A stretch of DNA of 64,000 nt from Cellulomonas sp. (GTDB lineage Bacteria > Actinomycetota > Actinomycetes > Actinomycetales > Cellulomonadaceae): positions 62,001 through 126,000 of the forward strand of contig NZ_JAGIBD010000005.1 in assembly GCF_017744555.1 (NCBI RefSeq), read 5' to 3'. The position numbers were made by a program, and so were the translations under genes. Shown here in pieces: positions 61,850 through 64,000 of the stretch (within the stretch, counting starts at the first letter, position 1; each line of letters opens with the position of its first letter). The notes below the pieces were generated by a model, which was given only the letters and a program-made list of their open reading frames with translations, made no database searches and was not told the DNA's origin.

Positions 61850-62200
61850 ATGAGCGAGACCACCGAGACCGCGACGCACGGCGTCCTGCTCACGGACGTG
61901 GCCGCGTCCAAGGTGCGCAGCCTGCTCGAGCAGGAGGGCCGCGACGACCTGCGTCTGCGCGTCGCCGTCCAGCCCGGCGGCTGCTCCGGCCTCATCTACC
62001 AGCTGTACTTCGACGAGCGCGTGCTCGACGGCGACGCCCTCAAGGACTACGACGGCGTCGAGGTCGTCGTGGACCGCATGAGCGTCCCCTACCTCGAGGG
62101 CGCGACGATCGACTTCGCCGACACGATCGAGAAGCAGGGCTTCACGATCGACAACCCGAACGCAGGCAGCGCCTGCGCGTGCGGCGGCTCGTTCAGCTGA
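61850..62200 (+). CDS. erpA: HesB/IscA-family iron-sulfur cluster carrier
   Basis: 116 residues. The three invariant cluster cysteines are C45 in QPGGCSGLIYQL and C109/C111 in GSACACGGSF. The A-type carrier fold delivers clusters to apo-enzymes. In mycobacteria Rv2204c is the counterpart. AGGAG precedes ATG 61850. A classical hairpin terminator follows. Confidence 0.92.
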   Translation: MSETTETATHGVLLTDVAASKVRSLLEQEGRDDLRLRVAVQPGGCSGLIYQLYFDERVLDGDALKDYDGVEVVVDRMSVPYLEGATIDFADTIEKQGFTIDNPNAGSACACGGSFS

Positions 62201-62216
62201 CCTGAACCCTCGGACG

Positions 62217-62244
62217 ACCCGGCACCGGTCACTCGGTGCCGGGT
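62217..62244. terminator. Terminator after the HesB/IscA gene
   Basis: ACCCGGCACCG and CGGTGCCGGGT form a perfect 11-bp stem with the 6-nt loop GTCACT, followed by CTTTCGTGTCTCC. It lies between convergent genes and may serve both. Confidence 0.85.
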
Positions 62245-62262
62245 CTTTCGTGTCTCCAGACC

Positions 62263-62499
62263 TCAGCGCGTGCGGACCGTGATCGCATGCACGCCGTCGT
62301 CCTCCGTGGCCGACACCAGCTCGTGACCGCGCATCCGGGCCCACGCCGGCACGTCGTGGACCGCGGCGGGGTCCGTCGCCAGGACGGTGAGCTCGGTGCC
62401 GGCGGGCACGTCGCGCGCGGCCCGTGCCAGACGGATCACGGGGGCCGGGCACCGCAGCCCGCGTGCGTCGACGACGACAGCGGAGTCCGGGGACGTCAC
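62263..62499 (-). CDS. TusA-family sulfur carrier
   Basis: 78 residues. The TusA signature RGLRCPAPVIRL holds the sulfur-carrying C17, and the fold ends with HAITVRTR. GTG 62499 overlaps the stop of the desulfurase homologue by four bases (GTGA), implying the two proteins work together; TusA normally takes persulfide sulfur from a cysteine desulfurase. Confidence 0.87.
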   Translation of the reverse strand: MTSPDSAVVVDARGLRCPAPVIRLARAARDVPAGTELTVLATDPAAVHDVPAWARMRGHELVSATEDDGVHAITVRTR

Positions 62500-63695
62500 A
62501 GGCCCGCCACCCCGAACGCGTCCCGCACCCGTGCGACGACCGACGGCAGTGCGACGAGGAACCGGTCGACGTCCGCCGGTGCGAGGTCGCGCGGCAGCCC
62601 GAGCCGCACGTTCCCGTGCGTGAGCACCCCCATCGCGGCCAGGACGTGGCTCGGCTCGAGCGCGCTCGACGTGCACGCCGAGCCGGAGCCGACCGCGAAC
62701 CCGAGCGCGTCGAGACCGCCGACGAGCGCCTCGCCGTCGACGTAGAGGCACGAGAACGTCACGACGTGCGGCAGCCGGTCGACGGGGTCGCCGACCACGT
62801 CGACGTCGGGCACGTCCGCGCCGACCCGGTCCCGGATGCGGTCGACGAGCGCGCGCCGCAGCGAGTCCTGAGCCGCGCGGTCGGCCTCGGCGACCTGCAG
62901 CGCGACGGCGGCGGCCAGCGCGGCGGGCACGCTCACACCGCCCGGGAACCAGCGGTCCTCGTCGTCGGGGCGGTCGGGGGAGCGGCGCACGCCGGGGCGG
63001 GTGACGAGGACGCCGATCCCGGCGGGACCGCCCCAGTCGCCGGCGTCGCCGGCGAGCAGGTCCCACTCGGGACCCACGGGGACGTGACCGAGGCTGGCCC
63101 CGGCGTCGACGAGCAGCGGCACACCCGCTCGTCGAGCCGCCTCGTGCGCGGCCGCGACCGGCTGGAGCGTGCCCACCTCGCCGTTCGCGTGCTGCAGGGC
63201 GGCGAGCGCCACCCCGCCGCCCTCGACGGCGGCGACGAACGCGTCGAGCTCGACACGGCCGAACCGGTCGACGGGCACCGCGACCCGTGCGTCCGGAGCG
63301 ACGCGGTCGGCGGCGGCGTGGACCGCGGCGCGCTCGACCGCGCTCACGACGACCTGGCGGCCGACCCGGCGTCGACCCGCGGCGACCGCGAGCACCGCGG
63401 AGTGCAGGGCGGCGGTGTGCGACGGCGCGAGGTCGACGTCCTCGGTCCGGACCCCGACCACGGACGCGATCGCCTCCCGGGCGCCGTCGAGCAGCATGCG
63501 CGCCCGGCGACCCTCGGTGTGCAGCCGGCGGGGGTCGGCCCAGCCCTGGTCGAGCGCCTCGACGAACGCGGCACGCGCCTGCGGCAGGAGCGGCGCACGG
63601 CCGCCCGCGTCGAGGAACACGCGCGACGCAGCCCCCGACGAGGTGGCGTGCGTCACACCGGCGGGGGCGGGGTCGTCGTCGTGCTGAGGCGTCAC
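62496..63695 (-). CDS. Cysteine desulfurase-like protein lacking PLP-site residues
   Basis: 399 residues of class V aminotransferase (NifS/IscS) fold. The catalytic-loop cysteine is kept (C341 in GSGSACTSSALEPSHV). However the PLP lysine segment, normally S-x-H-K-F-x-G-P, reads DAGDWGGPAGIG, placing Asp220 where Lys should be; the ring-stacking His of the EH motif is Arg122 (SAVERAAV); and the DxxQ phosphate-side Gln is Ser (LVDAGASLGHVPV). No frameshift explains this. TACCGT (complement of 63702-63707) lies six bases before GTG 63695. It may be a catalytically dead sulfur relay or a PLP-independent protein. Confidence 0.82.
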   Translation of the reverse strand: MTPQHDDDPAPAGVTHATSSGAASRVFLDAGGRAPLLPQARAAFVEALDQGWADPRRLHTEGRRARMLLDGAREAIASVVGVRTEDVDLAPSHTAALHSAVLAVAAGRRRVGRQVVVSAVERAAVHAAADRVAPDARVAVPVDRFGRVELDAFVAAVEGGGVALAALQHANGEVGTLQPVAAAHEAARRAGVPLLVDAGASLGHVPVGPEWDLLAGDAGDWGGPAGIGVLVTRPGVRRSPDRPDDEDRWFPGGVSVPAALAAAVALQVAEADRAAQDSLRRALVDRIRDRVGADVPDVDVVGDPVDRLPHVVTFSCLYVDGEALVGGLDALGFAVGSGSACTSSALEPSHVLAAMGVLTHGNVRLGLPRDLAPADVDRFLVALPSVVARVRDAFGVAGL

Positions 63696-63909: not shown

Positions 63910-64000
63910 GTGCACCCGGACACCCCCCGCCGGACGCGTCGTCCGGCCCTGAAGTGGGCCGGACTCGCAGCCGTGGTCGCGGTCGCCCTGAGCGGATGCT
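63910..64000 (+). CDS. ctaC: Lipoprotein, probably cytochrome c oxidase subunit II (3' end outside window)
   Basis: Only the first 30 codons are visible: Arg-rich start (HPDTPRRTRRPALKW), a hydrophobic stretch (AGLAAVVAVALSGC) ending in the lipobox LSGC. This fits the N-terminal lipoprotein signal of actinobacterial cytochrome c oxidase subunit II. The assignment rests on position: in mycobacteria ctaC (Rv2200c) lies beside the HesB/IscA and glycerate kinase genes. No catalytic part is visible. Confidence 0.55.
   Translation, partial: MHPDTPRRTRRPALKWAGLAAVVAVALSGC

Follow-up and report, generated by a model that had tools for sequence, protein, structure and literature searches.

What is left for a protein of the IscS/NifS fold to do once it has lost the lysine that forms the Schiff base with PLP? 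The question is raised by a gene near one end of the window (the whole 64,000-nucleotide stretch of Cellulomonas DNA that was analysed), whose product lacks this lysine and which overlaps a gene for TusA. Lysine-less genes of this kind resemble desulfurase genes so closely that they can be annotated as desulfurases, although their sequences indicate proteins unable to form the internal aldimine. IscS proteins without the lysine are already known from Archaea; what is new here is a bacterial subfamily that extends through an order and has a remodelled active site and an overlapping TusA gene. No description of this lysine-less, TusA-coupled subfamily was recognised in the open-licence PMC literature, as judged by titles and the starts of abstracts.

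The locus

The features of the locus are collected in Table 1. The lysine-less protein matched Pfam Aminotran_5 (93.1 bits), and the product of the gene overlapping it matched Pfam TusA (80.5 bits) and has the CPxP cysteine and two conserved aspartates of this sulfurtransferase. The 4 bp overlap noticed in an earlier, sequence-only reading of this DNA is GTGA, with tusA beginning within the stop codon of the lysine-less gene. The start of erpA was set by us at the ATG at 61850. The hairpin between erpA and tusA is a consensus match only (3 overlapping matches, against a mean of 0.1 in shuffled sequence). The ctaC frame continues on the contig as COX2 (PF00116; L189).

Table 1. Coordinates of the lysine-less gene, its active-site codons and its neighbours within the window.
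Feature	Position	Strand	Remarks
Lysine-less IscS/NifS-fold gene	62496..63695	minus	399 aa; GTG start at 63695, stop at 62496
Asp220 codon	63036-63038	minus	site of the PLP lysine
Arg122 codon	63330-63332	minus	site of the EH histidine
Ala200 codon	63096-63098	minus	site of the DxxQ glutamine
Loop Cys341 codon	62673-62675	minus	
tusA	62263..62499	minus	78 aa; CPxP Cys17, conserved Asp43 and Asp49
erpA (A-type Fe-S carrier)	61850..62200	plus	NF010147, 119.6 bits (cut-off 117); convergent neighbour
Terminator-like hairpin, 13 pairs (10 G-C)	62216..62245	plus	separates the converging erpA and tusA genes
Start of ctaC (cytochrome c oxidase subunit II)	63910..64000	plus	divergent neighbour, upstream; continues beyond the window

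No IscU-type scaffold gene was found at the window locus, where the neighbours are tusA, erpA and ctaC. Elsewhere in the same genome a lysine-bearing IscS adjoins MnmA, and a SufS-like gene has a SufU-like neighbour (both of the latter names being drawn from motif and neighbour); a single NifU_N protein was found in this 90% complete genome, on another contig and adjoining the SufS-like gene. The closest named relatives, among the best 80 of at least 582, are from Cellulomonas, with C. fimi HM71 at 76% identity, the window's own record possibly having been left out.

The sequence-only reading had suggested that the pair might act as a regulator close to the gene for cytochrome oxidase. The ctaC neighbour is real and conserved, being divergently upstream in 81 of the 83 lysine-less loci scanned, but it holds the same place in 63 of the 74 lysine-bearing loci, so that nothing about it is specific to the lysine-less form; erpA was convergently downstream in 68/83 and 59/74, respectively. 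Short flanks explain some of the absences in these counts, and the lysine-bearing set contains deep relatives and some remaining repeats. As the ctaC locus is shared by relatives with and without the lysine, it predates the loss and does not explain it.

Active site, fold and selection

Active-site positions were assigned by alignment with lysine-bearing relatives, the canonical IscS of this genome among them. The PLP Schiff-base lysine is replaced by Asp220 and the EH histidine by Arg122, as had been claimed. The further claim, that the DxxQ glutamine had become serine, was displaced by one residue: the local letters are D197-A-G-A200-S, and it is Ala200 that stands at the glutamine position, with the serine following. 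The serine three residues ahead of the lysine has become Asp217. Asp197, Asn171 and Arg364 are retained, as is Cys341 of the loop, whose preservation had also been proposed; it lies within GSGSACTSS, which contains the class I desulfurase motif SGSAC(T/S) given in the available text of PMC8300815, where the catalytic histidine of desulfurases is also treated.

A substitute lysine elsewhere in the protein was looked for and is excluded, because neither the lysine-less protein nor its TusA contains a single lysine. The Schiff-base lysine, the EH histidine and the DxxQ glutamine of a class I desulfurase are thus all missing; as far as sequence can tell, the window protein is almost certainly not a PLP desulfurase, and the earlier suggestion that it is PLP-free has strong support from sequence. 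Family score was dropped as a means of ruling on this point. The best NCBIfam match was to NifS at 189.3 bits, against 530.75, and the protein fell far under every desulfurase equivalog cut-off, but two lysine-bearing Streptomyces-type orthologs likewise missed these cut-offs, and the score is therefore not discriminating.

The AF2 model of the protein has the IscS fold (mean pLDDT 89.4, pTM 0.89) and, with the Pfam match, places it in fold type I, among the class V aminotransferases. The Cys loop, residues 340-343, is the sole segment of at least three residues with a pLDDT <50. The model's best PDB matches were M. tuberculosis IscS, the human ISC core complex and the IscS-IscU pair of A. fulgidus; E. 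coli IscS-TusA ranked 21st. In nine pairs of lysine-less genes from the Cellulomonas genus dN/dS was 0.085-0.285; two lysine-bearing pairs gave 0.182 and 0.227. Judged by these ratios, the lysine-less protein is under purifying selection.

A lysine-less subfamily

An ortholog was found (E up to 1e-50) in 103 of 396 sampled genomes of the window's order. We read 97 of the 104 ortholog places in the order (the others, G455, G584, G615, G625, G665, G734 and G786, all belong to family f9), and same-genus loci were added to the set. With rows chosen by kinship code alone, a lysine at site 220 was seen in 0/112 rows from the order, whereas it was present in all 22 rows from other orders of the class (part of 92 matching genomes). 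The same query matched lysine-bearing sisters outside the order at 1e-93 to 1e-117; a lysine-bearing ortholog inside the order should therefore have been picked up.

The division was the same by NCBI order among the best 80 of at least 582 relatives. All 17 Micrococcales loci, 14 of them new, were without the lysine (Cellulomonas, Actinotalea, Promicromonospora, Krasilnikoviella, Cellulosimicrobium, Paraoerskovia, Demequina, Terrabacter and one MAG), and all 63 loci outside Micrococcales kept it (Kitasatosporales, Streptosporangiales, Micromonosporales, Propionibacteriales, Mycobacteriales and one of unresolved order). Order rows and Micrococcales loci pooled gave a set of 126 rows, 126/126 without the lysine; this set and the 85-row lysine-bearing set used below include named loci sorted by lysine state and would be circular if taken alone, which the counts by kinship code and NCBI order avoid. 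The 126 rows hold one genome twice (L103/L248), after removal of L167, L168, L208, L210 and L268 as repeats (L208 was judged to equal L021, and L210 to equal L019). Rows within one clade are not independent events.

In a quick tree of 91 rows, from which the seven active-site columns had been removed, the lysine state changes twice and the histidine state three times. The tree puts one loss of the lysine at the base of the window's order; the branch joining the lysine-less order has an SH-aLRT of 93, below the starred level. The earliest-branching families of the order mostly retain the EH histidine, which suggests that the lysine was probably lost before the histidine.

The order-wide lysine-less form is a subfamily, not an accident. 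The proposal that the loss defines a subfamily holds for the window's order (112/112 rows, and the tree) but not for the TusA-coupled family overall, since relatives in other orders keep the lysine (22/22 and 63/63) and 62 of the 63 lysine-bearing loci outside Micrococcales also have TusA adjacent or fused. Sequencing error or a pseudogene was ruled out by the absence of the lysine throughout the 112 order rows together with the purifying selection.

The remaining pocket residues changed in a pattern. Residue 220 in the 126 lysine-less rows was Asp in 89, Ser in 24, Ala in 6, Thr in 6 and Glu in 1; Asp or Glu was paired with Arg122 in 90/90 rows, whereas Ser, Ala or Thr was paired with His at 122 in 25/36. 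This argues for an ordered remodelling of the site, and suggests, on the basis of covariation only, that an Arg122-Asp220 salt bridge may fill the space vacated. The lysine and the glutamine are gone from the lysine-less rows and the EH histidine and the serine at -3 from the lysine mostly so, residue 217 being Asp in 99/126. Asp197 and Asn171 are each invariant (126/126), and Cys341 and Arg364 are each retained in 125/125 scorable rows (L023, ended by a contig edge, lay outside the Cys341 scoring). We take the serine, the glutamine, Asp197, Asn171 and Arg364 to be PLP or substrate contacts, the last three on the ring or substrate side of the pocket.

Three further observations were made on single genomes or small clades. 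A same-genus genome that is 97% complete (G004) gave no match to the lysine-less gene and none to TusA, and offers a natural comparison strain. Genome G559 carries a second, divergent copy (L147) with an altered Cys loop (GCGCTC), which is possibly decaying. The deep-branching loci L064, L065, L066, L154, L155, L157, L158 and L160 keep the lysine with the preceding histidine changed to Ala (e.g. SAAKFGG), an unusual site.

Pairing with TusA

A linked TusA was present in 91 and absent in 34 of 125 lysine-less rows, with 10 changes on the tree. Where present it retained Cys17, Asp43 and Asp49 in all 77 aligned loci (14 other TusA-bearing rows lay outside the alignment). By motif position, these two aspartates correspond to Asp45 and Asp51 of E. 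coli TusA. Lysine-less rows without TusA still keep Cys341; the linked TusA is therefore not indispensable, and is unlikely to be the only partner.

The pairing predates the loss of the lysine and does not alone predict it, because TusA stands beside lysine-bearing relatives as well: of the 63 lysine-bearing loci (among the best 80 of at least 582 relatives), 23 have it as a fusion and 39 as a separate gene, and in 1 none was found; it was on the same strand in 8/16 deeper lysine-bearing rows. One locus of family f15 (L093) holds a lysine-less protein and TusA in one open frame, and fusion and lysine loss can thus coexist.

Leu346 was kept in 89/91 rows with TusA vs 15/34 without. In independent pairs, Leu346 and TusA changed in the same direction in a mean of 2.6 pairs to 0.0 (median p 0.25, few informative pairs), and the figures for Thr342 were 1.4 to 0.3 (median p 1). 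There is in this a hint that the Cys loop may coevolve with TusA.

An unlinked TusA variant, with CARL replacing CPxP, was also seen (L169-L177; L194-L203). It was found in 17/32 loci without linked TusA vs 9/79 loci with it (Fisher p 8e-6, kinship ignored), and independent pairs gave 3.8 to 0.2 (median p 0.125); in family f9 it was found in 0/13 loci without linked TusA. Among 21 genomes with a match to the CARL TusA (E up to 3e-12), 20 also have the lysine-less protein; the CARL state in some genomes was taken from PF01206 matches, the letters being seen for only part of these. The distribution hints that the unlinked variant could substitute for a lost linked TusA.

Genus g9 loci without a linked TusA have an altered Cys loop (CGKAAF, CEHDGF and similar; L025, L118, L119, L120, L122, L123, L125, L129, L134, L138, L142 and L152). 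Most g9 loci with TusA retain CTTSTL.

Possible roles of the lysine-less protein

The explanation we favour, and to which we would give about an even chance, is that the window protein has the IscS fold but no PLP, no longer desulfurates cysteine and acts as a dimeric sulfur-handling platform, passing persulfide by way of Cys341 with TusA. The Cys341 mobile loop would take persulfide sulfur from a lysine-bearing desulfurase or a sulfane-sulfur carrier, and would exchange it with Cys17 of the TusA encoded by the overlapping gene; sulfur may run from TusA to the IscS-fold protein as well as the other way, as the DsrE2-TusA operons described below suggest. We infer the formation of the dimer and the carriage of sulfur itself, as well as the donor, the direction and the end product. 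Desulfuration seems to be already covered in this genome by the lysine-bearing IscS and the SufS-like gene. The fold and the mobile Cys loop, with which sulfur is handed on, were kept while the residues that make sulfur available were dropped, which favours a PLP-free relay, or a docking dimer, acting together with TusA. The retained TusA cysteine, the purifying selection and a second loss of the lysine beside TusA are on the same side, and the sulfur relay of the sequence-only reading can probably be upheld as the best of several interpretations, helped by separate operons for lysine-less IscS, TusA and DsrE2. The invariant pocket residues Asp197 and Asn171 are not obviously needed by a pure relay. 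If these proteins are relays, cells can move persulfide over the IscS docking platform without its having to carry out cysteine chemistry, and the company of TusA (joined by DsrE2 in the second group) makes sulfane sulfur a possible source.

Two enzyme systems can be compared with the window pair. The E. coli IscS-TusA complex (PDB 3lvj) has the same fold, loop cysteine (Cys328) and TusA cysteine with two aspartates, but E. coli IscS carries PLP on Lys206 and obtains its sulfur by its own desulfuration; according to the available text of PMC2854127, about 4 A separates the loop cysteine from that of TusA in the complex, with TusA Asp45 and Asp51 nearby. The desulfurases paired with or fused to TusA in Streptomyces, Micromonospora, Kribbella and related genera are orthologs of the window protein (52-59% identity, 26 aligned) with the same divergent ctaC; unlike it they have the lysine and the EH histidine in 85/85 rows and the glutamine in 77/85, and they are presumably active enzymes. 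This lysine-bearing sister clade, at the same locus and often fused to TusA, provides a matched control for the role of the lysine.

The main rival to a relay, though in our estimate an unlikely one, is a role of the Archaeoglobus type, in which the lysine-less protein would lend its loop cysteine as an Fe-S cluster ligand on ErpA or SufU and supply no sulfur. A. fulgidus IscS (PDB 4hvk, 4eb5, 4r5f) resembles the window protein in fold, in the replacement of the lysine by Asp and of the DxxQ glutamine by Ala, and in the retained loop cysteine, and 4eb5, 4hvk and the D199K mutant 4r5f were among the structure matches. In the available text of PMC7585200 it is described as having no desulfurase activity and as providing a Cys ligand to the [2Fe-2S] cluster of IscU, and Methanosarcina acetivorans IscS1 is described there as without the lysine. 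It differs from the window protein in being archaeal, in keeping the EH histidine and in its identity of about 30%, a distance from which the two losses of the lysine would be separate in origin; moreover, in that text it was studied with IscU, not TusA (PMC7585200). The convergent erpA in 68/83 lysine-less loci, and the IscU gene adjoining the lysine-less IscS in 11/12 loci of the second group, fit this role. At the window locus, however, there is no IscU, the sole NifU_N protein found in the 90% complete genome sits elsewhere beside the SufS-like gene, and the overlapping partner is TusA and not a scaffold; erpA is on the opposite strand with the terminator-like hairpin between, and it is also found beside lysine-bearing relatives (59/74).

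It is improbable that the protein is a regulator or holder that binds TusA, or competes with it for the lysine-bearing IscS, and sets its supply while moving no sulfur. The gene overlap would suggest a coupled supply of the two proteins, and the available text of PMC2854127 places the E. coli IscS-TusA contact on one subunit and the loop tip of the other. This surface is outside the PLP pocket. A mere binder, however, would not need the cysteine, and Cys341 is present in every scorable row, the loci without TusA included.

That the old pocket holds another ligand (an amino acid, a thiol or non-covalent PLP), with new chemistry or sensing, is quite improbable. The selective loss of the lysine, the glutamine and mostly the EH histidine and the serine at -3, while Asp197, Asn171 and Arg364 on the ring or substrate side stayed invariant, could be read in this way; however, the invariant residues may be structural, and the Asp217 seen in 99/126 rows should repel phosphate. 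A functionless, decaying relic is very improbable indeed: TusA was lost several times, the second copy L147 looks degenerate and G004 has no match, but the purifying selection, the invariant Cys341, the order-wide spread and the conserved locus all go against it.

A second lysine-less group beside TusA

In other families of Actinomycetota (f36, f50, f65), 12/12 lysine-less IscS genes that were read adjoin TusA and DsrE2 (L161, L162, L166, L285, L288, L290-L294 and L296, with L299 lacking IscU), and genes for IscU, rubrerythrin and a thioredoxin-like protein were on the same strand in 11/12. Lysine-bearing IscS genes of the same set stood beside TusA and DsrE2 in 0/13 cases. The neighbours were searched for within about 3 kb flanks with the proteins of one locus as queries, so that a very divergent TusA beside a lysine-bearing gene could escape, and their Pfam names were taken from one operon; rows within a family are related, and the lysine-bearing and lysine-less rows are not 25 independent events.

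The residue at the lysine site was Leu in 10, Met in 1 and Gln in 1 of the 12, within a motif like SSDLLYGP (one was AANQFYGP). Like the window protein, this group has lost the lysine, has Ala for the glutamine, keeps the loop cysteine and has an adjacent TusA; unlike it, the group keeps the EH histidine and has DsrE2, and the ctaC locus was present in none of three scanned. One pair gave a dN/dS of 0.093. Three of the twelve rows were placed on the tree, where their loss of the lysine is separate from that of the window's order. Counting A. fulgidus, whose archaeal lineage lies outside the tree, there are likely at least three separate lysine-less IscS lineages.

A broader interpretation, which we advance tentatively and at rather less than an even chance, is that IscS-fold proteins coupled to TusA have repeatedly turned into persulfide relays that work without PLP, with sulfur coming from TusA- or DsrE-type carriers or from another desulfurase; the order-wide Asp220/Arg122 form and the IscS-IscU-DsrE2-TusA operon would be two such lineages. 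The gene run of the second group is a candidate for a system that builds Fe-S clusters from sulfane sulfur and not from cysteine. Genes for a thioredoxin-like protein, a lysine-less IscS, IscU, DsrE2, TusA and rubrerythrin also form a run in L181 (1067-6124, minus strand) and L182, and the run in L181 holds a Zn-ribbon gene as well.
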